Of a stretch of 32,900 bases of DNA, positions 7,747-25,050 are shown in pieces; position 1 is the stretch's first letter, and each line of letters starts with the position of its first letter. A model generated the notes under the pieces. The model was not told the DNA's origin and did no database searches. It saw only the letters and a list, made by a program, of their open reading frames with translations. The position numbers and the translations under genes are program-made. Source of the DNA: Methanosarcinales archaeon (GTDB lineage: Archaea > Halobacteriota > Methanosarcinia > Methanosarcinales > Methanogasteraceae); contig DAOURL010000008.1 in the NCBI GenBank assembly GCA_030625165.1, positions 1 through 32,900 on the forward strand, given 5' to 3'.

Positions 7747-8529
7747 ATGGAAAAACAGGTCATCGCAATCATGCGCCCTGACATGCATCTCGATTCCTCG
7801 GTCGCGCTTCTGCGTTCTCATGGCTTTGACGTGATCGCGGCACCGATGATCGAACTTAGGGATAATCGTGACAGCCATTTCGACGGGTTTGTAGAGCGCG
7901 TGCTCGCCTGCGAATCGGATATCGTGATATTCACCAGCGCAAACGGAATCGCATTCACGCTTGCGAAGATCGATGACCCTGAGCGTTTCGTTCATGCGCT
8001 TAACCGGACATCTGTTGTTGCCATCGGATCAAAGACGAAGAGAGCACTTGAGACGCGAGGCATAAACGTCTCCCTGATGCCGGATTCATACAGTTCGAAG
8101 GGGATCGCTGAGCTGTTGCGCGGCACTGACAACAAGACTGTGGAAGTGGTGCGGAGTACGCATGGGGATCCCGCGCTGATCACAGAACTGGGGCGTTCCG
8201 GAGATGAGGTTGAGGTGCACGAGACCGCGGTGTATAAACTGGTGCTTCCGGATGACGGCAGGCAGCAGCAGATGATTAAGGACGCGCTTGCCGGGAAGAT
8301 CGATGTATTCGCATTCACCAGTGCGATGACTGCCCACAACTTCATGACGGTCGCACGGTCGATCGGTGCCGAGGCAGGGATCGTGGACGTGCTATGCGAG
8401 AGAGTCGTTGCAGCGATCGGAGATCCCACTGCAGATGTCCTTTCCGGCTATGGCGTCAGCGTGGACATAATGCCAGAGAAGTTCACGTTTAAGGATATGG
8501 TCGATGCATTGCAGGTGCATGTAGGGTGA
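7747..8529 (+). CDS. hemD: Uroporphyrinogen-III synthase
   Basis: IVIFTSANGIAFT, VVAIGSKTKRALETRGI, VFAFTSAMTAHNFM, VVAAIGDPTADVLSGYGV; ATG at 7747. Confidence 0.9.
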   Translation: MEKQVIAIMRPDMHLDSSVALLRSHGFDVIAAPMIELRDNRDSHFDGFVERVLACESDIVIFTSANGIAFTLAKIDDPERFVHALNRTSVVAIGSKTKRALETRGINVSLMPDSYSSKGIAELLRGTDNKTVEVVRSTHGDPALITELGRSGDEVEVHETAVYKLVLPDDGRQQQMIKDALAGKIDVFAFTSAMTAHNFMTVARSIGAEAGIVDVLCERVVAAIGDPTADVLSGYGVSVDIMPEKFTFKDMVDALQVHVG

Positions 8530-8786
8530 GGGATTTTAAGTCAATAGTGATTTCAAAAATTGGGGGTTGTAAAGTTACTCTGGTGCTGGCGTTGTTTTGA
8601 GATTGTTATTGATTCAAGTCCCGTATCTGCCGCGTCAGGTTTGAATTTCCAGAACAATCAGAGTCGTAACCTGACGCCCGGGTAAGTTGGCAGTCCAGTT
8701 CGAAATGGTCCGACCTTTGATTAGTTTTTAGCAGAATCGCTAAAATACGATTAGGGGGGGATGACACCAGCGTGATCGAAATTTGT

Positions 8787-9680
8787 TTAACAGGGTGAGT
8801 GGGTTCTCCATATATTTTCAAAGTTATTCCTTAACAAAGCGATGGAATCCTTTTCCCTTATATATATTGTGCCGATACATGATGGACCTAATCTGTCTGA
8901 AAGCAGAATTTCCATTCCATCCAGCGCCCAATCATGATCAAAAAAAATCTGTCTGCATGTCCCATAGTCTTCGCGGGGTATATATTTTACCTCGATTTTA
9001 TCCCCATATTCCATCTTTAATCTTTTTACATCTTTTGCCTCATCATTTCTATCGATGATCGCCCTGATCTTCGATCCTTGTTGAATGATATGGCTATAAT
9101 ATGCTGTATATACCTCTTTAAAAACGTCGGTTTCGCCCAACATCATCGAGATGGTGGCATTCTCAGATCTATCCATGATCCCCAGAAGATTATACATGAC
9201 CCATGTATCAGCATAATGAAGTGTGACACTCCCCTTTTCTATCCCAATCCCATATCTGCCGAAGTTTTCCATCCAAATCCCATGCAGCTCCTCGACATCC
9301 CGGTTCCTGATGGAAAAATCTTCATCGGAATAGATATCCTTCAGATATTCGTTATATACCTCAGCAACGATCCCCGGGTTCACAGGTATGTATGGCTCTG
9401 TCCCGAATCTCGTATCCGACCCATGCACGAACAACACCTGTGCAATCAAACCATTGTCTATAAGTGCGTTCCTGCCATTCTTAAGCGCCCTTTCGGATAT
9501 GGTTTTGCGTATTCTTCTGGCTTCCCTGTACATTTCAGTAAAGCTCACCGGAGTGTGGTAAATCGAAGCAACATAATACAAAGAAGCTTCATGCGATACA
9601 TCGATCCCAATCTCATCAAATATCGATTCAAAGGTCTGGACAACACTTGTAAGTTTCATCTCTTCTATATTTATTCCCAC
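8787..9680 (-). CDS. Putative transcriptional regulator with N-terminal HTH-like region and C-terminal TrmB-/PLD-like sensor region
   Basis: N-terminus rich in helices (SFTEMYREARRIRKTISERALKNGRNALIDNGLI); C-terminus DGMEILLSDRLGPSCIGTIYIREKDSIALLRNNFENIWRTHSP. Confidence 0.5.
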   Translation of the reverse strand: MGINIEEMKLTSVVQTFESIFDEIGIDVSHEASLYYVASIYHTPVSFTEMYREARRIRKTISERALKNGRNALIDNGLIAQVLFVHGSDTRFGTEPYIPVNPGIVAEVYNEYLKDIYSDEDFSIRNRDVEELHGIWMENFGRYGIGIEKGSVTLHYADTWVMYNLLGIMDRSENATISMMLGETDVFKEVYTAYYSHIIQQGSKIRAIIDRNDEAKDVKRLKMEYGDKIEVKYIPREDYGTCRQIFFDHDWALDGMEILLSDRLGPSCIGTIYIREKDSIALLRNNFENIWRTHSPC

Positions 9681-9865
9681 GTTTAACCACCATGCAGTAA
9701 TCTTATCAAATTATAGTAGATATACCCTTTTCAGAAATATCACAAACTTCTCATTGCGTTATATTTGCAGAATGAAAAATTTACGTATCTGAAAATTGTC
9801 AAATCAAAGAAAGTACAATCTTTGCCCATCTGTTTTATATGCTTTCAAAATATACATAGATACAT

Positions 9866-9905
9866 TACCTCATTATCACTATTACAATAATGGATTGATG
9901 AGGTA
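9866..9905. promoter_or_regulatory. Inverted repeat TACCTCAT-N24-ATGAGGTA upstream of the first surface-protein gene
   Basis: Perfect 8-nt arms 9866-9873 and 9898-9905; TATA-like TTTTATATG about 25 nt upstream. Confidence 0.7.
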
Positions 9906-9931
9906 GTTAAACACGGAGGAGGTATGAAGAA

Positions 9932-11146
9932 ATGGCAAATTCAAAGACCGGGGGATTTAAGGAATTCGTGGCGGCTGTTAGCTGCGCACTACTCGCAACG
10001 ATACTGGCGTTTTCGATGTGCTCTGTTGCTGTTGCATATACGAGTGATGGTGAGACTGGCGCTGGTGGAACAGAGGGTATTTATGTAGTTGGTTTTACTA
10101 TAGACCCGACAAATGCAACGGTTTATTCCGGAAATAGCCAACAATTCATCGCAACCGCAACGGTTTTGGATACAACGACAGGAGAAACGACAGATGAAGT
10201 TGTATCTTCTGATGTTAGCTGGCAGAGCACAATCGGGAGTATTGATACTAATGGGCATTTTTCCGCGAAGGAAGTCGGTACGGGCATAATAAAAGTGATA
10301 TATGGGACGGTATCCGCAGAGGCGATAGTAACCGTCAATCATGGACCTGTAGACCGCATCTACATCACAGCAAATGATACCGAACTCGTCAGTTTCTCAG
10401 AGTTGACGCCATCTGTTTCGATACCACTCGGACTTAAAGGTGTGGATAGCTGTGACAACGAGTTCCAGATACCTGATGCACACTGGACATGCGATGACAG
10501 CATCGGCAGTATCACGCAAACCGGCGTATTCATGTTCGCAGATGGCATCGTTAATGAGACTGGTGGATTCAACCGAAGTCTTCTGGCTGATAACGAAAGC
10601 ACGATGACGATAATAACCGCATCGGTCAGTGCCAGCACTTCCTACACAGTGAATCTCACACTATATGCAAACAATCAATCAGGAATAAGGAACGATAATG
10701 TAACAGGTGTTAATGTTCGTGAGGATCCCCTAGAAACACCAGATGCAAGATTTTCACCTAAATTGATGGCAGTTCAGGTGATGGCAGCCAATGGTTGGGA
10801 CTTTAGAACGGTATACCCGGGTACACCTACTGGTTGGTCAAAGGTGACATTCAAGAACATCGGTACATGCGACATCAGGATTACGCCGCAGCCACCCATG
10901 AGTGCCCCTGATACCAACATTTATAAGTATGCATACTTAAGAGATGGATCAGAAGGAGATGGTATGAAGATGGGCAGTTATTCAGTTGACGTTCCGATAA
11001 CTCCAATATACGACAACTTCGGACGTATCGTCAGTTTCTCGTCAGAGACACAGACTGTGGAAGTTCGATTAATTCTCCCACCCGATCTGACAAGCGTTAC
11101 TGCAGGCGAAGACGGACCAATCAGGTACCTGCTTACGTCAATATGA
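9932..11146 (+). CDS. Secreted/membrane-anchored surface protein with BIG2-like Ig domain
   Basis: N-terminal hydrophobic segment AVSCALLATILAFSMCSVAVA; VSWQSTIGSIDTNGHFSAKEVGTGIIKVIYGTVSAEAIVTV resembles Big_2. Confidence 0.7.
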   Translation: MANSKTGGFKEFVAAVSCALLATILAFSMCSVAVAYTSDGETGAGGTEGIYVVGFTIDPTNATVYSGNSQQFIATATVLDTTTGETTDEVVSSDVSWQSTIGSIDTNGHFSAKEVGTGIIKVIYGTVSAEAIVTVNHGPVDRIYITANDTELVSFSELTPSVSIPLGLKGVDSCDNEFQIPDAHWTCDDSIGSITQTGVFMFADGIVNETGGFNRSLLADNESTMTIITASVSASTSYTVNLTLYANNQSGIRNDNVTGVNVREDPLETPDARFSPKLMAVQVMAANGWDFRTVYPGTPTGWSKVTFKNIGTCDIRITPQPPMSAPDTNIYKYAYLRDGSEGDGMKMGSYSVDVPITPIYDNFGRIVSFSSETQTVEVRLILPPDLTSVTAGEDGPIRYLLTSI

Positions 11147-12756
11147 AAAAAATTCTACTCCCTCTTTTTTTATTTTCTTTGATAGGAATTTCATCAGCAG
11201 CAGATATCATCGTCCCGAGTGAAGAATCGTATCATGTCCCCTACACGGACGAATTTACATTTACTCTGGTAGTTTCGAGTGAAGACTACAATGGACGGAT
11301 AATAGTGGAGGACCGGTGGGCAGAACCATGTGGTGTATGTGCAAAAGAGCCTGCCCTATACAACAAAACAGCATCCGATCTCGGCATTGAAATAAGTTAT
11401 GAAAACGAATTTTATATCTCTGAAAGAACTGCCCATGGTCTGAAAGTAGCGGTAAAAGTAGATACTGCAAATGTGTACTGTGGTTTGATTATTTTTACAC
11501 CGATTGACGTTGGTGGAAGCGGTATATTATCGCGCGGCACATGGATAACGATAGATATGAGAGGAATTTCATTATCGCCAGCAACCTCGCCTACAAACAA
11601 AACGGCGCTGAATATAACAGGCTTTAGCTCTGAGAAGAACCTTGAAATTTACTTAAACCAAAATCCTGTGGGGACTGTAGAGATAACCAGGGGCAACAAC
11701 TTCACTGCGACAATCACGTTATCAGAAGGGGATAATAAAATCTTCATGAAGGCGGCTGGGTCAGAACTACAGTCAAATCCGATCCGTATCACGCTCGATA
11801 CAATTCCGCCGGATGCACCAATCATTTTCCCCCTTCCCCTTCCAGCCGTAAACAAAAGCACGATTACAATAGCAGGAACTGCCGAGGCAGAGTCGATTGT
11901 TCACATATTCGTAAATGAAATCGAAAAAAATAATAGATCTGCGTCCGACTCCGGTGACTTTACGCTATCAAACATCGACCTGGATGTGGGCAACAACACG
12001 ATAACCGCGATTGCAGTGGACAGAGCAGGAAACCCGAGCAACGAATCTGCGCCTGTTTATGTGATCTACAGTGAAAATAAGAAGAGAATTCAATTGAGCG
12101 CAGATAAAACCACCACAATATTACATGATGGGGAATCTGCAACCTGCAACATAACCGCATTGGTTGTTGATGAGACTGGAACGCCGATGGAAAACACCAC
12201 AGTAACAATAAATTTCTCAATCGTTTCAGGAAATGCCGTTCTTTTAACAAGAGAAGTGGAGACGTATAGAGGTGGGGCAGCGACCATGATAGAAGGTGAT
12301 GATGCGGGTGACGTAACGATAAAAGCAGAAACATCTTCTCCGGATATAGGGGGTGATTCGCTCACCATCACCTTCAGAAGTCCGGAGTCCACACCTTCAC
12401 CCGGAAACGAGACAAACGAAACGATACATGTTTCCGATTCTGATGACAGATCCAGGGGCAGGAACATACCGAGTCTACTGATTTACATACTGGTTGCGAT
12501 CGCAATCGTTGTTGTGGGGTTCCTTCTATATAGTAAGATCACAAAAAAACGGAAAGGGCAGGCGGAAGAGATGGGTGATGGGTTATCATGGGTAGTATCA
12601 TCCATGAAGAAGAAAGGTGAGGACTATATGATAACAATCGATAAGGACGGTAAAAAGAAAACGATAAAACTGAATGAGAAGTTATATAAGAAATTAATAA
12701 AGAAGAGAAAGATGACGTTTGGCAAGCATACGATTGTGTTCAAGCCGAAAAAGTAA
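11143..12756 (+). CDS. Surface protein with Ig-like repeats, C-terminal TM helix and basic cytoplasmic tail
   Basis: Signal peptide MKKILLPLFLFSLIGISSAA; repeated Ig-like segments; TM IPSLLIYILVAIAIVVVGFLLY; tail MKKKGEDYMITIDKDGKKKTIKLNEKLYKKLIKKRK. Confidence 0.75.
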   Translation: MKKILLPLFLFSLIGISSAADIIVPSEESYHVPYTDEFTFTLVVSSEDYNGRIIVEDRWAEPCGVCAKEPALYNKTASDLGIEISYENEFYISERTAHGLKVAVKVDTANVYCGLIIFTPIDVGGSGILSRGTWITIDMRGISLSPATSPTNKTALNITGFSSEKNLEIYLNQNPVGTVEITRGNNFTATITLSEGDNKIFMKAAGSELQSNPIRITLDTIPPDAPIIFPLPLPAVNKSTITIAGTAEAESIVHIFVNEIEKNNRSASDSGDFTLSNIDLDVGNNTITAIAVDRAGNPSNESAPVYVIYSENKKRIQLSADKTTTILHDGESATCNITALVVDETGTPMENTTVTINFSIVSGNAVLLTREVETYRGGAATMIEGDDAGDVTIKAETSSPDIGGDSLTITFRSPESTPSPGNETNETIHVSDSDDRSRGRNIPSLLIYILVAIAIVVVGFLLYSKITKKRKGQAEEMGDGLSWVVSSMKKKGEDYMITIDKDGKKKTIKLNEKLYKKLIKKRKMTFGKHTIVFKPKK

Positions 12757-12772
12757 TACCTATCAGGGAGTG

Positions 12773-14860
12773 GTGAATATCAAGTTTCATAACATTGGTC
12801 GGAAAGTAATTTTCGCAATCCTACTTTCAATGCTGCTGCAACCAGCAATCGCTGCCACGAGCGAATGTCCTGATGATGATCCGAACACCGATGTTGTGTG
12901 GGTGAGCAGCGGTAGCACAATCCTCGCATGGAGCATGACGTACGGATTCGAAGCGGATGATGCGGTGTATATCATACGGGCTTGCGATTTTGATCAGGGT
13001 CTGGGCGCATCGCTCATATCGATTGAGAAGGAGGGGGTTGTGAGGAGAAAGGTTCTGTATCTTGATACGCGGCCAGGGGATGATTGGTTCAACTGGGACG
13101 CTGAGATAAGGGTGAAATTAACTGATATAACTACAGATGCACACGAAACTCCGTCAGCACACCTGGATATGTATCGCGGAGAGAAACCCCGGCTTGATAT
13201 CGAGATCGGTGCGACATCCGAGACCTTCTATGGGATCAACGTGTCCTCTGATCAGTACGCTCCGGGAAAGGAGAAGACTGTCACGGTATCTGTTAAGAAT
13301 ACAGGAGGGGCATGGATCGAGGATGTTGTAGTATGGGTTGATATCGGAGAACTAAAACTTTCAGATGGGGTTTTTGAGTTCCGTGATCAGATAATATATG
13401 AAAGTCTCGGGTGTATGGAGAATGGTGATACCAGATCGATCAATTTCACTGTTGCTGCACCAGCATGGAATGGGGTAACCTCGCCGTATCAGATCAATTA
13501 CACCATATCAGCATCTGCTGAAGGAATTGACATCCAGGAGAGGCGATACTGCACAAACGAATCCGTAAACCTATCCTGCACCGACCCTCAGTTACAGGTT
13601 ATACAATCGGTCTGCTATGATGAGATCAGTATGAGTCGGTGCAATCTCATAAGCTCGAATATGAGTCTGAAGAAGATCGCTACATCCATGCCAGAAGCCT
13701 TGATATATAACGTTAGTGAGTGGAGCGTCGTGGAAGTCAGCATCTGTAATATCGGCTTCTACCCTCTTTACAATCTCAATATCACGGACTCTCCGATACC
13801 TGACGGCTTCGGGGTTGCAGAGGTTCATGAGGAAGGATCGTTGGAGTACGTATCTAAGGATCATTCCTATCGCATCCGGTATAAGATTGTGCCGACAAAG
13901 CCTGGCAAGCATGTAGTCAATGCAACGGTTGTCAGAGCGGATTTCTACGGGACGAAACGTTCATGGAGTTCGGATGGTGCCACCATCACAGTTCACGGAC
14001 CCCATATCAATCTTGCAAAGACGATTACGGAATCGGGTAACGGGACGTACAGGGTGGCATTGAACATGCGAAACGATGGGGATCGTGCTGCGCTCATAGA
14101 TCTCATAGACACCATACCCTTATACGCGCGCTACACCGAGGGTGGTATGGATGAAGGTATCGACACCCCCACCAGATGGGATTTCGATCTCCGCAGGATC
14201 AATGATTCGTATCTCTTGGTAGTAAATGACGTTCTTCTGGAGCCGGAACAGTCCATCGGGTTTTCATATCACGTACAGTCTGATCGTGAACTGAATCTTT
14301 CGCGCGCAGAGGCATGGTTCATAGCTCGAAATGGCTACGGTGGTGTGGTCTTCTCCTCGATCTCGGGTCTTCCTGTGGCAGTGCCGGACGACAATGTGAC
14401 CTCTGAGAATCTGACCTCTGAGAATGTAACATCTGGTACCCGGTCAAATCAGTCAGAGTCTCTGCCTGTAAAAGTACCCGCGCCCGCTTTTAAGAATGAG
14501 ACCAGTGTCCTGCCCACTAATGCTTCTGGTCCGAAGGATGAACCAAAGGGCAGGAACCTGTTTGATCTACTGATATATACGGTGATTGGAATCGCGATCC
14601 TTGCTGCAGCGTTCCTACTGCATGGCAGGATTGCAAGAAAACAGAAAGGGCAGGTGGAAGAGGTGGAAGAGGTGGACGTGGGGTCATCATGGGCTGTATC
14701 GAGCATACGGAAGGCAGGCAGTGAATATGAGATAACAGTGAATAAAGATAGTAAAAAGAGAACGATAAAACTGAATGGGAAGTTCTATAAGAAGTTAATA
14801 AAGGATAAAAAGTTGACGTTTGGCGAGCAAACGATCTTGATCCTGTCTAAAAAAAGATGA
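12773..14860 (+). CDS. Surface protein with CARDB-like repeats, C-terminal TM helix and the same cytoplasmic tail
   Basis: GTG start after AGGGAG; signal VIFAILLSMLLQPAIAAT; TM LFDLLIYTVIGIAILAAAFLLH; tail homologous to the previous gene. Confidence 0.72.
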   Translation: MNIKFHNIGRKVIFAILLSMLLQPAIAATSECPDDDPNTDVVWVSSGSTILAWSMTYGFEADDAVYIIRACDFDQGLGASLISIEKEGVVRRKVLYLDTRPGDDWFNWDAEIRVKLTDITTDAHETPSAHLDMYRGEKPRLDIEIGATSETFYGINVSSDQYAPGKEKTVTVSVKNTGGAWIEDVVVWVDIGELKLSDGVFEFRDQIIYESLGCMENGDTRSINFTVAAPAWNGVTSPYQINYTISASAEGIDIQERRYCTNESVNLSCTDPQLQVIQSVCYDEISMSRCNLISSNMSLKKIATSMPEALIYNVSEWSVVEVSICNIGFYPLYNLNITDSPIPDGFGVAEVHEEGSLEYVSKDHSYRIRYKIVPTKPGKHVVNATVVRADFYGTKRSWSSDGATITVHGPHINLAKTITESGNGTYRVALNMRNDGDRAALIDLIDTIPLYARYTEGGMDEGIDTPTRWDFDLRRINDSYLLVVNDVLLEPEQSIGFSYHVQSDRELNLSRAEAWFIARNGYGGVVFSSISGLPVAVPDDNVTSENLTSENVTSGTRSNQSESLPVKVPAPAFKNETSVLPTNASGPKDEPKGRNLFDLLIYTVIGIAILAAAFLLHGRIARKQKGQVEEVEEVDVGSSWAVSSIRKAGSEYEITVNKDSKKRTIKLNGKFYKKLIKDKKLTFGEQTILILSKKR

Positions 14861-14973
14861 TTATACACCAGGCAGGCAATATGTAAACTTTTCGTTTCGC
14901 GATCTTTGCAAAAGGAGAATAAGTGAATTTTCCACAATTTTCTTAATATACCTCCAAAACATATTTTACATTG

Positions 14974-14995
14974 TACCTCATTATCATCATGAGGT
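14974..14995. promoter_or_regulatory. Inverted repeat ACCTCAT-N7-ATGAGGT upstream of archaellin 1
   Basis: Arms 14975-14981 and 14989-14995; shares TACCTCATTATCA with 9866-9878; TTAATATACC TATA-like element about 25 nt upstream. Confidence 0.7.
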
Positions 14996-15039
14996 TGGTG
15001 ATCGTGTGGGGTAAACAACAATACAGGAGGAAACAAATA

Positions 15040-15705
15040 ATGAGTAAATGGAAATTCCTTGAGAAATTCAAGGACTTTGGGAAGGACGAAAAGGCATTCA
15101 CAGGTCTGGAAGCAGCAATCGTGCTGACCGCATTCGTCGTGGTTGCAGCGGTATTCAGCTATGTGGTGCTTGGAGCGGGATTCTTCACATCGGAGAAGAG
15201 CAAGGAGGTCATCCACACAGGTATGGACCAGGCAACTTCTTCGGTCGAACTCGCGGGAGATGTGATAGGTCACAGTACTGATAATACGCTGTTAACGAAT
15301 GTAACAGTGTACCTGCAGCTGACAGCAGGCAACAATCCTATTGACCTATCTAAGTTGACGGTCGCGTATGCCGACAAATACGTGTACATCGGAAGTCTTA
15401 CGCATAGCGACAATACGACATACGATAGCACCTACCGGAACACAGATAACGTAACTTCTGCTGGACAATGGGATTTTGCCTTTGTCGCAGATAAAACCAA
15501 TAGTTACGGGAATGACGATGTCATGCTCGATTCAGGCGAGACGGCAAGGGTGCATATCTCACTGCCTGCTGAAGCAGGAAATGCTAACGGCGGGGTTGCG
15601 GTCAATAACTGGTTCCAGATCGAGATGAAACCAGCAAGTGGAGCAGCGCTCTCAATGGAGAAGACGATTCCGGGAGCTGTAGATGCCATAATGGTGTTGT
15701 ACTAA
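15040..15705 (+). CDS. arlB: Archaellin 1
   Basis: Class III signal and hydrophobic helix DEKAFTGLEAAIVLTAFVVVAAVFSYVVLGAGFFTS; AGGAGG RBS; ATG at 15040. Confidence 0.95.
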   Translation: MSKWKFLEKFKDFGKDEKAFTGLEAAIVLTAFVVVAAVFSYVVLGAGFFTSEKSKEVIHTGMDQATSSVELAGDVIGHSTDNTLLTNVTVYLQLTAGNNPIDLSKLTVAYADKYVYIGSLTHSDNTTYDSTYRNTDNVTSAGQWDFAFVADKTNSYGNDDVMLDSGETARVHISLPAEAGNANGGVAVNNWFQIEMKPASGAALSMEKTIPGAVDAIMVLY

Positions 15706-15711
15706 GAGGTG

Positions 15712-16263
15712 ATGAAGATGAGACTATTTAATAAACTGTTGAAGGATGAGAGAGCTTTCACTGGTCTGGAAGCAGCGATCGTGCTGACCGCGTTCGTCGT
15801 GGTTGCAGCGGTATTCAGTTATGTGGTACTGGGTGCTGGCTTCTTCACATCTGAGAAGAGTAAAGAGGTCATCCACACAGGCGTTGAGCAGGCAACATCA
15901 TCGGCAGAGGTGGTTGGTGATATCATCGGCAGAGAGACAACTGATGACAGTTATATAGACTATATCAACTTCACCATTGAGTTGACAGCAGGCAACAACC
16001 CGCTCGATCTTGATCAGGCGACGATATCATATACATCAGCGACCAGACACGAACCATCGGTGACCTGGGCGTACACGGTTTTTGAAGGCGACACCGATAA
16101 CATGCTTGAATCGCACGAAAAAGCTGAGATCCAGGTAACGGTTCCGGGAAATCTTGGAACATATACAGAGTTCCAGCTTGAGTTCAAGCCAAACGTGGGT
16201 GGCACACTGCCGATATCGAGGACAACGCCGGGCACGATAGACAAGATAATGAGGTTGTACTAA
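15712..16263 (+). CDS. arlB: Archaellin 2
   Basis: DERAFTGLEAAIVLTAFVVVAAVFSYVVLGAGFFTSEKSKEVIHTGVEQATSS. Confidence 0.95.
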   Translation: MKMRLFNKLLKDERAFTGLEAAIVLTAFVVVAAVFSYVVLGAGFFTSEKSKEVIHTGVEQATSSAEVVGDIIGRETTDDSYIDYINFTIELTAGNNPLDLDQATISYTSATRHEPSVTWAYTVFEGDTDNMLESHEKAEIQVTVPGNLGTYTEFQLEFKPNVGGTLPISRTTPGTIDKIMRLY

Positions 16264-16269
16264 GGGGTG

Positions 16270-16998
16270 ATGAAGATGAGACTATTTAATAAACTGTTGA
16301 AGGATGAGAGAGCTTTCACTGGTCTGGAAGCGGCGATCGTGCTGACCGCGTTCGTCGTGGTTGCAGCGGTATTCAGTTATGTGGTACTGGGTGCTGGCTT
16401 CTTCACATCTGAGAAGAGTAAAGAGGTCATCCACACAGGCGTTGAGCAGGCGACATCCTCTATGGAGCTCGGCGGCTATGTGGTCGGACACGGGTGGACG
16501 TATGGCTACGTGAACGCGTCCGCGGGGACCTGGAACGCTTCGGGTGGTGGTACTGACTATCTGTCATACTACGCATGGGGCAATGATACAGAGGATCGGA
16601 ACAGAGTGAACGCGACCGGGCTCACCGTTATGGAGTTCCAGGTGGAGCTTGCTGCAGGACAGAATCCGATTGACATGGATAAGATTGTGATCTCATACAG
16701 CGATGATGACACGTATGTAGCCCAGGTGGACGCTGTAACAACTACCAATGCAAGTAGCGGCAACTTTACCGTGACTGCAACATCCGGACAGTGGGCCTAC
16801 AGCCTGCTGACAGGTGAGATGGGCGGTTCCAACATGCTCGATCCGACAGAGAAGATGCTGATAGTGGTGGCATTGCCAGACTGGGGCGCAACCATTTATG
16901 AAGAGTTCGTGATCGATATAAAGCCTGCACAGGGAGCGACTCTGACGATGACGAAGACCGCACCGGGCGCGATACAGAAGACGATGGTACTCCATTAG
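16270..16998 (+). CDS. arlB: Archaellin 3
   Basis: Same N-terminus as archaellin 2; divergent distal part with an N-glycosylation-sequon-rich insert. Confidence 0.95.
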   Translation: MKMRLFNKLLKDERAFTGLEAAIVLTAFVVVAAVFSYVVLGAGFFTSEKSKEVIHTGVEQATSSMELGGYVVGHGWTYGYVNASAGTWNASGGGTDYLSYYAWGNDTEDRNRVNATGLTVMEFQVELAAGQNPIDMDKIVISYSDDDTYVAQVDAVTTTNASSGNFTVTATSGQWAYSLLTGEMGGSNMLDPTEKMLIVVALPDWGATIYEEFVIDIKPAQGATLTMTKTAPGAIQKTMVLH

Positions 16999-17026
16999 AG
17001 TACCTCTTCTTTATTTTTTGGGAGGT
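16999..17026 (+). terminator. T-rich tract between the archaellins and the downstream arl genes (possible partial terminator), with ACCTC/GAGGT pairing over the next RBS
   Basis: TACCTCTTCTTTATTTTTTGGGAGGT directly after the archaellin 3 stop. Confidence 0.4.
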
Positions 17027-17033
17027 GGGAATC

Positions 17034-17969
17034 ATGGAATCAGATAAAAGACTAACATCACTTGATAACGAGTTCAAGATCGTGAAAGGGGAGATAAAAG
17101 CGTTACTGATAGATATCCGTGAGATCATGAATAACATGGAGAATCCATTCTACAATACTCAAGGTATAACTGGTGGTCCGGATACATCAGTAGAGGTAAA
17201 GGCGGAACTGAAGGGAGACGCTCCGGGGGGGAGCATCCAGCCTGAAGATGTGTTAGAACAGGAGCCCGAACGGGAGCACCATCCGGACTTTACAGAGATG
17301 CCGGTGCAGCATGATGGGATGCAGCCGATGGGAGCAAGACATGCACATAACGTTGCAGAGACGCCAGTGCAGCAGGATGGACTGCAGCCGATGGGGGGAA
17401 CACCGGAACCGTATCATCCGGGTTTTGCAGAGACGCCGATGCAACAGGGGATGCCTATGCGGCAGATGGGGGGAACACCGGAACCGTATCATCCGTATCA
17501 TCCGGACTTTGCAGAGATACCGGTGCAGCATGATGGGACGACGCAGGAGGCGACGCCAGAACACATTCCTGACTTTGCAGAGATGTTTAAGCAGTACGAG
17601 GAAGCGAAGCAGAGCGAAGGGATGCCGGAAGAAACCCTGGAAATCCAACCTGATAACGGATTCGATATCTACACCCTCGCCGAACTGATGAGATGGACGG
17701 ATTACACACTTAAAACGATCGAACGGAGTAGATTGGATGAGCTGCTGGATCTGTGTGTGTTTACTGGACATATCTCAGAGACGCTAAAAGACACGGTCTC
17801 GAAGATCGCAGACATGTCCGCTCAGGAGGTTGCTGAAGGGAGTACGTCAACGATGAAAGATCACATAGCCGCGATGTTCCAGTTGAATGCGGTATTGAAT
17901 CCAAGCGAGTCTGATCAGAAGGCGATCTATTCAATATATGGAGAATTGCCATGGAGGACGGTGGGGTAA
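17034..17969 (+). CDS. Archaellum protein ArlC/D/E-like, with repetitive linker
   Basis: N-terminal KGEIKALLIDIREIMNNMENPF (ArlC-like); C-terminal TLAELMRWTDYTLKTIERSRLDELLDLCVFTGHISETLKDTV (ArlD/E-like); ATG at 17034 with GGAGGTG RBS. Confidence 0.8.
   Translation: MESDKRLTSLDNEFKIVKGEIKALLIDIREIMNNMENPFYNTQGITGGPDTSVEVKAELKGDAPGGSIQPEDVLEQEPEREHHPDFTEMPVQHDGMQPMGARHAHNVAETPVQQDGLQPMGGTPEPYHPGFAETPMQQGMPMRQMGGTPEPYHPYHPDFAEIPVQHDGTTQEATPEHIPDFAEMFKQYEEAKQSEGMPEETLEIQPDNGFDIYTLAELMRWTDYTLKTIERSRLDELLDLCVFTGHISETLKDTVSKIADMSAQEVAEGSTSTMKDHIAAMFQLNAVLNPSESDQKAIYSIYGELPWRTVG
17276..17590 (+). repeat. Degenerate repeats inside the ArlC/D/E-like gene
   Basis: GGAACACCGGAACCGTATCATCCG occurs twice; variants of CCGGTGCAGCATGATGGGATGCAGCCGATG recur. 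Confidence 0.8.
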
Positions 17970-18461
17970 ATGGGCGGAGAAACGATCAGTATTGCTATGA
18001 TCACGATAGCGTCCGTGATATGTGCTGCAACATTCGTCACTTCAGCATTTCCGGCGATTGCAAGGGCGCAGGATCCGCTCATAGCTTCAGCAGACGCGAT
18101 CAATGATAGGATGAAGACCGATATAACGATTATACACGAGACAGACTCTTTATCAGGAAGCATCGTATACATCTGGGTCAAGAACGTGGGAAACAATCGC
18201 ATCCATCCGAATCTGATCGCTAACTCAGACCTCTTCTTCGGACCCGAAGGAGATTTCATGAGGGTTGTATATAATGAGACCGGATCGATCTCACCAGGCT
18301 GGAACTACACAATCGAAAACGGTGGTGCTAAATGGGGGCAGGGAGAGACGATCAAGGTCACGATGAATATGCCTGGTAATCCGGTTATACCAGGGACGGA
18401 GTATTTCGTCAAGTTCATAATGTATAATGGTATCTCGGATGAGGATTATTTCACGGTGTGA
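17970..18461 (+). CDS. arlG: Archaellum stator/filament protein ArlG
   Basis: N-terminal TM, then RMKTDITIIHET... VYIWVKNVGNNRIHP pattern typical of FlaG; position. Confidence 0.75.
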   Translation: MGGETISIAMITIASVICAATFVTSAFPAIARAQDPLIASADAINDRMKTDITIIHETDSLSGSIVYIWVKNVGNNRIHPNLIANSDLFFGPEGDFMRVVYNETGSISPGWNYTIENGGAKWGQGETIKVTMNMPGNPVIPGTEYFVKFIMYNGISDEDYFTV

Positions 18462-18466
18462 GGGAA

Positions 18467-18982
18467 ATGGGGGCTGGATCAATCATTGCGGCGATAGTAG
18501 CGGTTGCGGCAATCCTGATAGCAGCCAATGTCGCCATAACAGGGGGGTTATACATGACCAATACACTAACAAGCTCGATGAAGGAAGTGCAGGATGCAAA
18601 GAATGAGCAGTTGAAGACTGAGATAGAGATCAGTAACATCACTGCGAATAAAACCCGTATCGACGTAACGCTTCGTAACACGGGTCATGAACGGATCAGG
18701 GAATATTCGCAGATGGACCTGATCGTGCATTACTATTCGGTCAATGGTGGGTATGTGAGGATCGTCTGGCTATCATACACGAATGGGACGCCGGACGGTG
18801 ATGAATGGACCGTAACCGGGATATCACCGGATCGGATCAATCCGGATATATTCGATCCTGATGAGGAGATGACGATCCGGATCGAGGTGGATGATAGCGA
18901 TCCGATGAAATATGAATACATAAACTGGCTCCAGATAACGACTCCAACCGGAGTGAGTACATCAAAGTATTTTAGTGGGTGA
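18467..18982 (+). CDS. arlF: Archaellum protein ArlF
   Basis: N-terminal TM then KTEIEISNITANKTRIDVTLRNTGHERI; position between arlG and arlH; ATG at 18467. Confidence 0.7.
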   Translation: MGAGSIIAAIVAVAAILIAANVAITGGLYMTNTLTSSMKEVQDAKNEQLKTEIEISNITANKTRIDVTLRNTGHERIREYSQMDLIVHYYSVNGGYVRIVWLSYTNGTPDGDEWTVTGISPDRINPDIFDPDEEMTIRIEVDDSDPMKYEYINWLQITTPTGVSTSKYFSG

Positions 18983-18987
18983 TCAAT

Positions 18988-19725
18988 ATGGCTGAAGAAG
19001 AATTCGACGATAAAGAAGAAGACTTTCTTGCGGATGTCTTATCCTCAGGAAATTATGAGATCGATCAGAAGATGGGTGGCGGAATCCCAATGAATTCGCT
19101 ATCCCTCTTCGAAGGGGAAAATGACAGTGGCAAGTCGGTCCTTGTACAGCAGATTATGTGGGGGGGCTTGAATCAGGGACGGCGTATCGCCATATTCACG
19201 ACTGAAAATACTGTCAAGAGCTTGCTTAAGCAGATGACAAGTCTGTCACTCGATGTAGATGATTATTTCATCATAGGACGTTTGAATATATTTCCGATCC
19301 ATGTGCAGGGCGTTGACTGGGCTGAAGATGTGGGTGGCAACCTACTCGAGTTCATGCTGAAATCCATGGCGCAGTGTAAGAATGATGTCATCATCATCGA
19401 TTCGCTCACGGTCTTTGTCTTTCATTCGAATGATAACGACATCTTAAACTTCTTCACAGGATGTAAAAAGCTGTGCGATCTTGGAAAGACAATTCTACTG
19501 ACGGCACATGGGTACGCCTTCCCTGAGAATCTTCTGATCAGGATCAGATCGATCTGTGACGCACACCTGCACCTGAAGATGGAAGAAGCTGGCGATCAGA
19601 TGATAAAGTCGCTGGTGGTTGCAAAGATACGTGGTGCACAGAAGAGCACGGGAAACATCGTCAGCTTCGACGTTGATCCTGGCTTTGGTATGAGGATCAT
19701 CCCGATCTCGAAGGCAAAGGCGTAA
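18988..19725 (+). CDS. arlH: Archaellum ATPase ArlH (KaiC-like)
   Basis: Walker A EGENDSGKSVL; Walker B DVIIIDSL; position. Confidence 0.93.
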   Translation: MAEEEFDDKEEDFLADVLSSGNYEIDQKMGGGIPMNSLSLFEGENDSGKSVLVQQIMWGGLNQGRRIAIFTTENTVKSLLKQMTSLSLDVDDYFIIGRLNIFPIHVQGVDWAEDVGGNLLEFMLKSMAQCKNDVIIIDSLTVFVFHSNDNDILNFFTGCKKLCDLGKTILLTAHGYAFPENLLIRIRSICDAHLHLKMEEAGDQMIKSLVVAKIRGAQKSTGNIVSFDVDPGFGMRIIPISKAKA

Positions 19726-19739
19726 GTAAGGTGATTAAG

Positions 19740-21494
19740 ATGGAGTCTCTACCCTTTGAACCGAACGTTCATGAGGCGCATGGAGCCGATCTGATGCAGT
19801 GTGGACTCTATCGCATGTTACCTCCGGATGCAAAGAAGTTTATCAGTGTAGAGGAGAACCGTCATGTACTTGATTACATCCACATGCTTCCACTCGATGA
19901 TATAGGGGTACCAAAGTTCTACCCCAAGCTTTCAAGAGATCTGAAGAAGATAACGAAGCCGAATATCATATATCCTGCCGGAGATGGGATATCCATCCAT
20001 ATTTATCCGGATAAAGATGATGTGAGGAACTACTACATCCCTATCGAACCAACCCTGTTCGTGAATGTCGATGAACTGCTCATAGAGGTGGAAGAAGCAC
20101 TTGTCGATATCGTAGACGTTCTGGAGGTTACAACAGATGATATATATGCTAAGAAAGCCTTACTGGAAGAGGGTCTCGATGATGTATGCATCATAGAAGA
20201 CGATGGAGATGTAGGGGCAGAAGGGGGGATCAGGAAGAGGATATTTGATCGCATCCGCGGATTTGCCAGGACCACCAAAAATAAGAAGGTGCATGTAACC
20301 CCTGACGAATTTCAGAAGATCAAATACTACATATTCAAGGATAAGATCGGGATGGGACCCCTCCAGCCACTTCTGATGGATCCGTATATCGAGGATATCA
20401 GTTGCAGTGGTGTGGGGCAGATATTTGTGGAGCACAAGATCTTTTCCGGATTAAAGACGACGATAACGTTTAATGATATAGCGGAACTCGATTCTTATGT
20501 GGTACGGATGTCAGAGAAGATAGGAAAGCCGATAACATACCGGGATCCGATCGTTGATGCTGCGCTTCCTGACGGATCAAGGATAAACATCGTGTTCGGA
20601 GAGGATGTATCGAAACGGGGCAGCAATTTCACGATAAGGAAGTTTTCAGAGACGCCGCTCAGCATCTTAAACCTCATCGACTTCCATACGCTCGACTATA
20701 AGATGGCTGCGTATCTCTGGATGTTGTTGGGTGCGGGGATGAACTGTTTCGTTGTTGGTGAGACCGCATCAGGAAAGACGACGACGCTTAATGCAATGAC
20801 AACGTGTATGCGGGCAGACTCAAAAATTATATCGATAGAAGATACGCCTGAATTACAGGTACCTCATAAGAACTGGTTAAGAGAAGTCACAAGAGGATCC
20901 GGAGACGGGGGAAGCTCGGACGTGACAATGTTTGATCTGCTGAAGGCTGCCTTGAGGCAGCGTCCGGATGAGATAATAATCGGCGAGATCAGGGGCGCTG
21001 AGGGTAACATCGCTTTTCAGGCGATGCAGACCGGACATCCTGCGATGGCTACGTTTCACGCAGCATCCGTTGAGAAACTGATCCAGCGGCTGACCGGAGA
21101 CCCTATAAATGTTCCGAAGACCTACATAGACAACTTAAACCTTGTTGTCATCCAGAATTCTGTGAATGTCCCGGGTAAAGGGATGGCGAGGCGCATCACA
21201 AGCATCAACGAGATTATAGGATATGATCCATCCTCCCAGGCATTCTCCTTCATCGAGACGTTTCAGTGGGATGCCTCAAAAGATGCATTCAAATTTACAG
21301 GAAATAACAACTCGTACCTGCTTGAGAACCATATCGCTACAAAGCGCGGCTTACCGAAGAATAAACGAAGAAGGATATATAAAGAGCTTGATCGAAGAGA
21401 GAAGGTCTTAAAGAAGATGCATGATGCAGGGGTACTCGGATTCTATGAGTTATTCAAGATGATGGGGCGTGTGGAAGAGGGGGGGATCGTGTGA
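19740..21494 (+). CDS. arlI: Archaellum motor ATPase ArlI
   Basis: Walker A VVGETASGKTTTLNAM; secretion ATPase motif LRQRPDEIIIGEIRGAEGNIAFQAMQTGHPAMATFHA. Confidence 0.96.
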   Translation: MESLPFEPNVHEAHGADLMQCGLYRMLPPDAKKFISVEENRHVLDYIHMLPLDDIGVPKFYPKLSRDLKKITKPNIIYPAGDGISIHIYPDKDDVRNYYIPIEPTLFVNVDELLIEVEEALVDIVDVLEVTTDDIYAKKALLEEGLDDVCIIEDDGDVGAEGGIRKRIFDRIRGFARTTKNKKVHVTPDEFQKIKYYIFKDKIGMGPLQPLLMDPYIEDISCSGVGQIFVEHKIFSGLKTTITFNDIAELDSYVVRMSEKIGKPITYRDPIVDAALPDGSRINIVFGEDVSKRGSNFTIRKFSETPLSILNLIDFHTLDYKMAAYLWMLLGAGMNCFVVGETASGKTTTLNAMTTCMRADSKIISIEDTPELQVPHKNWLREVTRGSGDGGSSDVTMFDLLKAALRQRPDEIIIGEIRGAEGNIAFQAMQTGHPAMATFHAASVEKLIQRLTGDPINVPKTYIDNLNLVVIQNSVNVPGKGMARRITSINEIIGYDPSSQAFSFIETFQWDASKDAFKFTGNNNSYLLENHIATKRGLPKNKRRRIYKELDRREKVLKKMHDAGVLGFYELFKMMGRVEEGGIV

Positions 21495-22969
21495 GCGAGG
21501 AGAAGAGGGTTGCGGATGATCTACTCTTCCTGCTCACGTATATGGCATCGATTGCCACAGCAGATATCGATAGGAATGAGCTGTTCAAACATACATCTGA
21601 GCAGAACTATCCGCTGTCGATATATTTCAAGCGGGTATACACGCTTGCTGCAAAGTGGAGCTATGCATATTCAAAGGCGTGCAAATTCATCTCAAAAAAG
21701 GCAAAATTTGCGGTTTTAAAGGAATTTTTCGGGAGAATGGCAAGTGCCATGTCATCAGGAGAGCCTGAAAAGGAGTTTCTGAAGAATGAGCTGAGCACGA
21801 TGGAAAGTATATACTCCAATAATTATGAAAGAAGCATCGAGGCACTTAAGAAATGGACCGATGGATATACCGCGCTCCTCATCTCAACAACGCTCATTGT
21901 GATGGTTATACTACTATCAACAATGCTATATCCAATCGGAGATATACATCAAACTGCGTTTGTGATCTCTTTGGTGATGGTAGTCATCTGTGGGATAGGG
22001 GTATTTACCATACGCGATGCGGCTCCATACGAGTTGAGAACACATTCGCTTGAGACCGGATCGAAAGAACAGGAGATCATAAAACTGCTCTGCAGGGCAT
22101 TACTTCCAGCCGGATTCATAGTGACACTTGGTTTGATTCTGTTACAGATACATCTCGGGTATATCATGATCACTGCAGCAGCATTCGTAGCTCCGATTGG
22201 GGTTATGGCGGTGATTGATGATGGCAAGGTAACCGGCAGGGATTATGATTTCCCTTCGTTTGCAAAGACACTTGGTTCACTTGCAGGAACGATGGGTATC
22301 AACCCGAATATTGCGATGAATTACTTAGACCGCGAAACAGTCGGATCCCTTGAACCGCTGGTCAATACGTTACATAAAAGTCTATCGATCGAACTCAGCC
22401 CGGGTCTCAGCTGGGAGAGGTTCATCAGGGACAGCGGGTCTGAGCTGATAAACCGATGCACAAGGATATTTAACGATGCTATAAATCTTGGCGGAGATCC
22501 TGCAGAGATCGGGAAGATCGTCTCTTCGTCAAGCCTTGCAATCGTTCTCTTAAGGATGAAGCGAAAACCTGTCAGTGCCAACTTTGCAGGGTTGGTTATA
22601 CTGCTCCACACCTCAATGTCAGCCCTTCTCATATTCATCATCGAGATCATAGTCGCATTTAATGTTGCGCTTGCAACGATGTTTGAATCATCGGGCTTAG
22701 CGGAGGGTGCGGAGGGTGCTATGTCGGGTATGTCCGGGCTTGCTGGCAGTTTTGGAGGTACTGGTTCTGCCGAGCTTACCTTCCTGTACCAGTTTACGAT
22801 AGCAGCCGTCTTGATACTGACGATTTCAAACACCATTGCAATGATGGTGGCAGATGGCGGTGCAAAGTGTAAGATATTCTTCTATGGGGCGATAGTAACT
22901 GCTGCATCGGGTCTGGTTATGCTGGTCGTACCGGGTCTTGTATCCACGATGTTCGCGATTAACGTGTAA
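21491..22969 (+). CDS. arlJ: Archaellum platform membrane protein ArlJ
   Basis: Overlaps arlI; multiple TM helices; T2SF-like DFPSFAKTLGSLAGTMGINPNIAMNYL. Confidence 0.93.
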   Translation: MSEEKRVADDLLFLLTYMASIATADIDRNELFKHTSEQNYPLSIYFKRVYTLAAKWSYAYSKACKFISKKAKFAVLKEFFGRMASAMSSGEPEKEFLKNELSTMESIYSNNYERSIEALKKWTDGYTALLISTTLIVMVILLSTMLYPIGDIHQTAFVISLVMVVICGIGVFTIRDAAPYELRTHSLETGSKEQEIIKLLCRALLPAGFIVTLGLILLQIHLGYIMITAAAFVAPIGVMAVIDDGKVTGRDYDFPSFAKTLGSLAGTMGINPNIAMNYLDRETVGSLEPLVNTLHKSLSIELSPGLSWERFIRDSGSELINRCTRIFNDAINLGGDPAEIGKIVSSSSLAIVLLRMKRKPVSANFAGLVILLHTSMSALLIFIIEIIVAFNVALATMFESSGLAEGAEGAMSGMSGLAGSFGGTGSAELTFLYQFTIAAVLILTISNTIAMMVADGGAKCKIFFYGAIVTAASGLVMLVVPGLVSTMFAINV

Positions 22970-22980
22970 GAGGTGATGAT

Positions 22981-23439
22981 ATGAATATAGGTGAGATAAC
23001 TGAAAAACTGATTCGGAAGATAAAGGGGGAAGATGAGATGGGCATTGAGCTGGAGATTGAAGACCTGTTATCAGATGAAGAGGAGCCTGATGAAGGGTTG
23101 GAGTCGGAATCTACTGGTGGATGGGTGCAGACGATAGAAGATAAGGATGATGATGATCTATCTTTTGAAGATGACCCCTCCAATGCCGCTAAAGGTGAAG
23201 AAGGCGAAGAGTCTGATGAATGGATTCGGCAGGATGATGATAAGACCGATCTGCAGGCATTTGGGTCAGGCGGGTCAGACACCACCGAGGATACGCTGTT
23301 AACAGAGCTAAAGATGGACGATGAGCTTGCCGATCACGAAAATCATGAGATTCTGGAGTATCTCGAGGTGGTTGGCGCGGACGAGCTGGTAGCTGAGATG
23401 AGGGGTGTTGTAGCGGAGCTTAAGAGAGGTCAAAGATAA
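22981..23439 (+). CDS. Small highly acidic protein of unknown function following arlJ
   Basis: RBS GAGGTGATGAT; Asp/Glu-rich; C-terminal LEYLEVVGADELVAEMRGVVAELKRG. Confidence 0.75.
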   Translation: MNIGEITEKLIRKIKGEDEMGIELEIEDLLSDEEEPDEGLESESTGGWVQTIEDKDDDDLSFEDDPSNAAKGEEGEESDEWIRQDDDKTDLQAFGSGGSDTTEDTLLTELKMDDELADHENHEILEYLEVVGADELVAEMRGVVAELKRGQR

Positions 23440-23442
23440 CTC

Positions 23443-23456
23443 TAAAATATAAATAT
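23443..23456 (+). promoter_or_regulatory. Archaeal BRE/TATA-like promoter for the intron-bearing transcript
   Basis: TAAAATATAAATATGG, followed about 95 nt later by AGGAGG and ATGA immediately before the intron. Confidence 0.5.
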
Positions 23457-23558
23457 GGAATCATTTAGGATTATCGTAGTAGTATCGGGGCATCAGCACC
23501 GGCACGTCCGGTAATAAACAACAAACAGAACAAACCAAGGAGGGATTAGAAGAGATGA

Positions 23559-24332
23559 GTGCGCCGAGCAAAATTCATATCATCCAGTTGGTGAAAACCC
23601 AACCTGGGGAAAGGTTAGCCGCCACCTCAGAACTGAAACCCAGCACCCGAGTACTGGTAACAGGCTGCTGTGAAGCCAGGGGGATTGGATACTGGGCCGC
23701 AACGCGAGTGAAGGTACCCACCCCCGAAATTCATCTTGTCTCGGAGGTCGACGCTGTTCATCTGACGGAAGACCGTACTTTCATCACCGTTAATCCGAAT
23801 CTCCGGTCTTGGAATATAGCAGGGAGCTCTGGGGTGTGGTTAGGTGATGCGAGCCCAGGCGGGCGTCTGATGCCGTGGCACGGTGCCAACGGCTTTGCTC
23901 ACTGCGTTCGCATTATCAAACGGATACGCTTGGGTTCTCGGGAGGGGCAGTGTGTTCTCCTTACGGGTGTATGTGGTGTCAAGCATAAGAACGGTGAGGC
24001 ATTGCAGATGGCGCTCTGGGAGTCGGACCAGTTCATAGTGCCAACGGCTTTGCTTCGCTTGCGCTTCGCATTACCGTCGAAACAGGGTAATTCCTGTAGA
24101 GGGAAGGGACTGGCAGAAGAACCATTGGGACAGGGACACATCTTCCGCACTCAGATGCGGGTTAAAGATGGCAACAAAACCGGACTCATAACCCATCTGA
24201 CAAATGATGGAGAGGGTTCTTCTGAAGAGCCGGATGAGGGAAAACCTCACGGCCGGTTCTGTGAGAGGGCTTCAATAGTAACCTCGGAGCTATTACTCCA
24301 TCAGGAGGTGCGCTATGAGCTCTACTCGACAT
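23559..24332 (+). mobile_element. ORF-less group II intron (ribozyme only)
   Basis: 5' GTGCGCCGAGC; domain V GAGCCGGATGAGGGAAAACCTCACGGCCGGTTC (24227-24259) with AGC triad; domain VI stem AGGGCTT[CA]ATAG / CTATGAGCTCT with bulged A at 24324 and end CTCGACAT; IBS1 AGATGA (23553-23558) complementary to TCATCT at 23758-23763 (also 23731-23736). 3' end uncertain by about 2 nt. Confidence 0.9.
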
Positions 24333-24338
24333 CAGAGT

Positions 24339-24479
24339 ATGTTGATCAAAAAAGGCAGCATGAATATCGAGGAGAGGGACGTGATTGCTGTGGAAAAGAA
24401 TATGAAAGAGGAGCGCATCAGGGTCGGCGAAGATGTCGGAGGAAACGATAGGCACACATTGAGCCGTGAGATGCGTTGA
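24339..24479 (+). CDS. Small ORF immediately 3' of the group II intron, possible exon 2 / host gene
   Basis: MLIKKGSMNIEERDVIAVEKNMKEERIRVGEDVGGNDRHTLSREMR; RNY-like codon pattern; below the ORF-track length cutoff. Confidence 0.45.
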   Translation: MLIKKGSMNIEERDVIAVEKNMKEERIRVGEDVGGNDRHTLSREMR

Positions 24480-24492
24480 AGAGGAGTTATAG

Positions 24493-24783
24493 GTGGAGAA
24501 TATGAAAAAGAATATCTCAAAGGCGAAGGCGTTTCAGATTGTCGTTGACAACATGAGGACGCTCTGCTATGAACAGACGATGGAGCACCGCACATCTTTA
24601 TCACGGATTGCAGGTCTTATCGGACTTTGCGAGCTTATACTTATCATCATAGTAATCGCACTCTCTGTATCAGGTTGGGATCTGTATGGAATAATCATCA
24701 TTTCGATGATCGCCGGATCATTCGTAACGAATATGCTATGGTTCTACCTAATGAGACGAGAGGTGAGAATTTGGAAGGGTTGA
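24493..24783 (+). CDS. Small membrane protein, unknown function
   Basis: Two hydrophobic helices; start at 24493 or 24502. Confidence 0.6.
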   Translation: MENMKKNISKAKAFQIVVDNMRTLCYEQTMEHRTSLSRIAGLIGLCELILIIIVIALSVSGWDLYGIIIISMIAGSFVTNMLWFYLMRREVRIWKG

Positions 24784-24786
24784 TAG

Positions 24787-25050
24787 ATGGCGAATCGTGA
24801 ATTTGTTCAGCAACAAGTCGTATTCATTGGATTCGTTATTTATCTCATCATTATCTGGAGAATCTGGCATCTTGCAATCCTTGGGATTATGGGTGGTGCG
24901 GTGCCGGCGAATTTTGTCCGAACCATGCTCGCCGATATGCCTGCCACGCATCAGATGTTGGTGCAATCATGTTTATGTGCCGTCAAACCAAGTAAGCGAT
25001 ATGGAGCGATGCATCGCAATCGCAAAGAAAGACCTTACAGCCGAGTTTAG
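24787..25050 (+). CDS. Possible small membrane protein overlapping ccmB
   Basis: Hydrophobic FIGFVIYLIIIWRIWHLAILGIMGG; C-terminal part overlaps the ccmB start in another frame. Confidence 0.35.
   Translation: MANREFVQQQVVFIGFVIYLIIIWRIWHLAILGIMGGAVPANFVRTMLADMPATHQMLVQSCLCAVKPSKRYGAMHRNRKERPYSRV

Follow-up and report, generated by a model that had tools for sequence, protein, structure and literature searches.

A group II intron without a reverse transcriptase at the scar of a chemotaxis deletion in an ANME-2-type archaeon

Group II introns of Methanosarcina, both ORF-less and encoding a reverse transcriptase (RT), have already been described (Dai and Zimmerly 2003; Simon et al. 2008, as cited in PMC4424553). 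In the cyanobacterium Thermosynechococcus elongatus, experiments established that the ORF-less TeI3 introns are mobilised by proteins of TeI4 (PMC2882425), and a census of archaeal genomes reported a maximum of 10 group II introns (PMC8919778). A literature search on group II introns in ANME archaea found none described by title or abstract. Here, we report an intron within a 32,900-nt stretch of Methanosarcinales DNA (contig DAOURL010000008.1, hereafter the window, whose numbering is used throughout). The kind is therefore known in the order, whereas this member, its subfamily and its setting appear from the sequence to be new as far as we searched. The best explanation as a whole, to which we assign a probability of about 0.9, is that an ORF-less ANME-2 intron that had lost its RT reverse-spliced into the relic of a chemotaxis deletion and has since been inherited vertically.

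Architecture of the intron

The initial annotation read this region as an archaeal group II intron, and the Rfam covariance models bear that out. RF00029, which describes domains V and VI, matches 24225-24330 at 44.5 bits (cut-off 40 bits), and RF02005 (group-II-D1D4-6), run at relaxed settings, matches domain I just one bit below its curated cut-off of 49 (Table 1). A free fold of the element is 3.1 standard deviations more stable than shuffles and also sets long-range structure around domain I. As anticipated, no RT is encoded, there being no Pfam or NCBIfam match inside the intron. Judged by these signatures, the element is an ORF-less group II intron, a real mobile intron of the self-splicing type minus its own enzyme. 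Its archaeal origin is supported by the adjoining archaellum operon and by Methanosarcinales/ANME-2 genomes that match the locus at ~89-97% DNA identity.

Table 1. Features of the intron and its surroundings, in window coordinates
Feature	Position	Strand	Evidence
ArlJ/FlaJ, end of the upstream archaellum operon	21491..22969	+	NCBIfam NF004703, 567.5 bits, just under the cut-off of 570
152-aa acidic ORF between arlJ and the intron	22981..23439	+	also in G006
IBS1 (AGATGA) in the 5' exon	23553..23558	+	6/6 with EBS1; blind covariation scan; G006 mcp-start alignment to exactly 23558
ORF-less group II intron, whole element, 772 nt	23559..24330	+	RF00029 and RF02005 matches; same site in G002; intron-free L052
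Domain I, stretch covered by the D1-D4 covariance model	23594..23847	+	RF02005, 48.1 bits, E=3e-12
EBS1 (UCAUCU)	23758..23763	+	pairing, covariation, blind scan
30-nt insert TGCCAACGGCTTTGCT...TTCGCAT, without counterpart in the RT-bearing copy, present in ORF-less relatives	23884..23913	+	
Further 33-nt insert of this kind, found only in the window and G002	24039..24071	+	
Domain IV stub with RT-start relic, RT body deleted	24168..24224	+	alignment with L028; same stub in L110, L111, L112
Domain V catalytic hairpin	24226..24260	+	Rfam match, fold, DV/DVI alignment
Domain VI, candidate branch-point A at 24324	24262..24330	+	Rfam match, fold, DV/DVI alignment
3' exon, what remains of the cheD C-terminus; in frame with ATGA once spliced	24331..24479	+	

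The expected GUGCG boundary is present at 23559; other copies carry variant 5' ends, for example GAGCG and GCGUG. An AY 3' end had been proposed at 24332; the sequence type is right (..GAC), but the true end lies two nucleotides earlier, at 24330, because the Rfam match stops there, the ..GAC/A end is common to other full-ended copies, and the match to an intron-free allele (described below) resumes at 24331. In the predicted domain V hairpin, Rfam and the fold agree on an 8-bp lower helix containing the AGC triad, a bulge and a 5-bp upper helix, and the unpaired A24324 of domain VI is also bulged in the free fold of the whole intron, six nucleotides before 24330. Relative to RT-bearing copies, domain V shows two slight differences, a GAAAA loop of 5 nt and, next to the bulge, an A facing a G; its catalytic fitness is accordingly only putative. 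Across seven copies the DV/DVI pairs are retained in 97.4% of cells, with no compensatory changes among them; every change is one-sided, and the pairing is thus conserved without proof by covariation.

The 6-nt complementarity claimed between EBS1 and IBS1 was found in full. In a single copy such pairing is weak evidence, since three places in the intron (EBS1 and two others) can pair fully with IBS1. Over 21 copies of the family, 113 of 126 positions are paired, whereas permutation gave 95.8 on average and a value as high in 0 of 20,000 runs, although this test overstates independence because many of the copies are kin. When identical EBS1/IBS1 pairs were counted once, leaving 16 distinct ones, 83 of 96 positions paired against 70.0 expected (p=0.0002). 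In a blind scan of the same 21 copies, exon positions -5 to -1 with intron positions 200-204 ranked first of 4,308 exon/intron segment pairs, which is the very pair named in the initial annotation; for EBS2/IBS2 the scan gave weak candidates only. Scan and covariation together show the EBS1-IBS1 guide-target relation to be real at the level of the family.

The intron-free allele and the chemotaxis deletion

The genus was placed through three of its genomes, Methanosarcinales archaeon CSMAG_1193 (G002), UBA203 (G004) and ANME-2 cluster archaeon E20ANME2 (G006). We take the genus of E20ANME2 to be the ANME-2c (Ca. Methanogaster) lineage. The intron occupies the identical site in G002, where 16 of its 772 nt differ (2.1%), a divergence not clearly below that of the surroundings. 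A Guaymas contig (L052, QNDS01000161) matches the ANME locus at ~94.6% over 5.5 kb and has no intron. This contig lies in a bin labelled Candidatus Fermentibacteria and is probably misplaced there. Its junction reads GGATGA/ATCAGAG: the match to the window breaks off within the preceding ORF and picks up again exactly at 24331, while immediately before the junction five nucleotides (GATGA) agree. These five are all that L052 shares with the 5' flank of the window, as its upstream flank has diverged. The ATGA/ATCAG junction, newly recognised here, supports both predicted splice sites.

In G006 a run of chemotaxis genes comes after the archaellum operon and the 152-aa ORF: mcp, cheW, a CheF-like gene, cheY, cheB, cheA, cheC and cheD (MCP, through MCPsignal, and CheD were checked in Pfam and CheW domains were detected, while the other names come from reading the sequence). 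The 5' flank of the window aligns to G006 as far as 23558 exactly, a position that corresponds to the fourth mcp base; from there G006 continues into the complete gene. The 3' flank resembles the end of cheD (SMLIKKGSMNIEERDVIAV versus SGMKGNTMNIGERNIAAV). The two flanks are separated in G006 by ~7.3 kb of chemotaxis genes, which are therefore gone from the window, with the intron at the junction. Since L052 has the junction and no intron, the deletion most likely came before the insertion, and placing the intron on a deletion scar is new here.

The chemoreceptor start codon is inherited at 23555-23557, and spliced exons would fuse it to the CheD C-terminus. The resulting frame, MNQSMLIKKGSMNIEERDVIAVEKNMKEERIRVGEDVGG..., runs on unbroken in L052; the spliced window would read MNQSMLIKKGSMNIEERDVIAVEKNMKEERIRVGEDVGGNDRHTLSREMR, continuous in L052 and truncated in G002 by a 65-nt deletion. 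It therefore has the look of a relic in decay, and whether splicing occurs may be of no consequence to the host. Near its end, G006 cheD itself has an apparent frameshift (L050 3574-4008), which may reflect either an error in sequencing or incipient decay.

The window genome lacks CheW and CheD domains, as do six of the other seven genomes in the genus (several are incomplete); G006 has them, and so do all five genomes tested from other genera of the family. In three genomes of the genus (G001, G003 and G005; L142, L143 and L144) positions 8508-24962 of the window are missing, a loss of 16.4 kb that includes the whole archaellum region; the join falls at the 3' end of the 7660-8529 gene and is marked by a short TGCA in common. 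UBA203 has a different further deletion at the same place (L053 5988-6341), taking the junction and part of the cheD relic. A single genus thus shows stepwise loss of chemotaxis and then of the whole motility region, a point relevant to the question of whether these consortium-forming archaea can still swim. A literature search on chemotaxis loss in ANME-2c gave nothing usable.

RT-bearing relatives and the ORF-less subfamily

The initial annotation suggested looking for RT-bearing relatives elsewhere in the genome, and these exist. Contig C120 encodes an intact 443-aa RT/maturase without stops (TIGR04416, 369.5 bits), which has D1-D4 and DV/VI matches of its own on either side; this copy scores 110.3 bits with RF02005 and shares 78% DNA identity with the window intron. 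Contig C131 of the same genome holds a related intron with a partial RT. No match was found among PLSDB plasmids, or in IMG/VR queried with the RT.

In the window, domain IV is reduced to a stub that retains the relic of an RT start at 24168-24191, ATG GCA ACA AAA CCG GAC TCA TAA, the counterpart of which in RT-bearing copy L028 is ATG ATA ACA AAA CTG ATG TCC AAA. ORF-less copies in G004, G005 and G006 have the same stub. Counting the window, no fewer than three different 3' flanks occur among the copies that share it, with one flank common to the copies of G005 and G006. Because the stub is common to copies at different flanks, our analysis suggests that the RT was lost once and that the ORF-less form would then have spread in trans. 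An ORF-less subfamily at several sites in the genus, as these sequences indicate, is newly seen here.

The two inserts within the intron (Table 1) both begin with TGCCAACGGCTTTGCT and end with TTCGCAT, and possibly represent a small dispersed repeat. The 17-nt core of the insert occurs 13 times in the genome at no more than two mismatches, and the reversed control not at all. Intron pieces of ~150 nt, in which the first 76 nt are fused to the last 72 nt without domain V, were seen in G000 (contig C172, L121 564-713) and G002 (contig C27, L120 708-857); both lie directly after the TGA stop of a gene whose frame resembles coaBC, apparently at the same site. Partial matches in G001 (L142 4808-4887) and G003 (L143 3197-3276) comprise the 5' piece only. 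G006 contains 27 domain V/VI matches, about a dozen with identical score. That a few RT-bearing copies are spreading the ORF-less subfamily of this ANME-2 genus in trans, and that the subfamily is decaying into ~150-nt pieces without domain V, is a tentative picture, to which we would give not quite even odds.

Competing histories and comparison with known systems

The intron lies under a single 298-codon open frame that has an ATG and, upstream of it, GGAGGG, and could be taken for a genuine protein gene whose intron features are coincidental. The initial annotation had called this frame spurious, rightly so: the G002 copy has an in-frame TAG at 24083, and the window and G002 differ in it by 11 non-synonymous codon changes (the stop included) against 4 synonymous ones. 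The pN/pS is ~0.9, compared with 0.29 for FlaJ in the same two genomes, so the frame bears no sign of purifying selection, and searches of Pfam and NCBIfam with the ORF gave no match. The covariance-model matches and the intron-free allele also oppose a protein gene, and we reject that reading as having a negligible chance of being correct. A 298-aa gene call over this region would be false, which is a warning for annotation. A different history is offered by recombination of an intron copy in mcp with another in cheD, which would have deleted the chemotaxis operon and left one hybrid intron at the scar. The intron is located exactly at the deletion junction, group II intron copies are many in the genus, and the G006 mcp start, AGATGA/A, would itself be a good target. 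However, L052 has the same deletion junction and no intron, so that recombination would need an additional precise intron loss there, and we found no chemotaxis operon with introns. Intron-intron recombination is thus disfavoured as the cause of the deletion, and we consider it improbable.

The account that we prefer is an ORF-less intron inserted after the deletion. It would have derived from the RT-bearing introns of the family (C120, C131), losing almost the entire RT gene from domain IV. The ~7.3-kb deletion downstream of the archaellum genes (mcp, cheW, cheF, cheY, cheB, cheA, cheC and most of cheD) left a small relic reading frame, which the intron then entered between ATGA and ATCAG. 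Arrival was most likely by EBS1/IBS1-guided reverse splicing with a maturase/RT supplied in trans, and inheritance in the two sister genomes has presumably been vertical since then. We infer the insertion route, the trans action of the RT and any present competence to splice from the sequences. Within this account, differing in present activity alone, the intron may already be a drifting relic that no longer splices or moves. The small domain V departures, the two inserts, the lack of selection for splicing that follows from a relic frame truncated in G002, and an intron divergence not distinctly lower than in the surrounding sequence all point that way; the near-complete retention of the DV/DVI pairs and the ORF-less relatives at other sites, which imply that the subfamily was mobile, point the other. 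We regard inactivity as a serious possibility, somewhat less likely than not.

The locus thus offers both intron ends fixed by a natural intron-free allele, in uncultured archaea of the methane-oxidising type in which few introns have been described. As with the Methanosarcina introns, it belongs to the archaeal order Methanosarcinales and places RT-less introns beside related RT-bearing ones. It differs in genus and in sites, the window intron lying in a relic frame at a chemotaxis deletion and not nested in introns. The closer likeness in mode of spread is to TeI3/TeI4, with which the subfamily would share a single ancestral deletion of the RT in domain IV, ORF remnants, spread by proteins acting in trans and EBS/IBS-matched sites, although that system is cyanobacterial and its mobility is experimental, whereas here it is deduced. 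If the tentative picture of the subfamily is true, this ANME-2 genus would provide archaea with their own equivalent of the 'driver' system of Thermosynechococcus, in genomes whose introns (27 DV/VI matches in G006) exceed the census maximum of 10 (PMC8919778).
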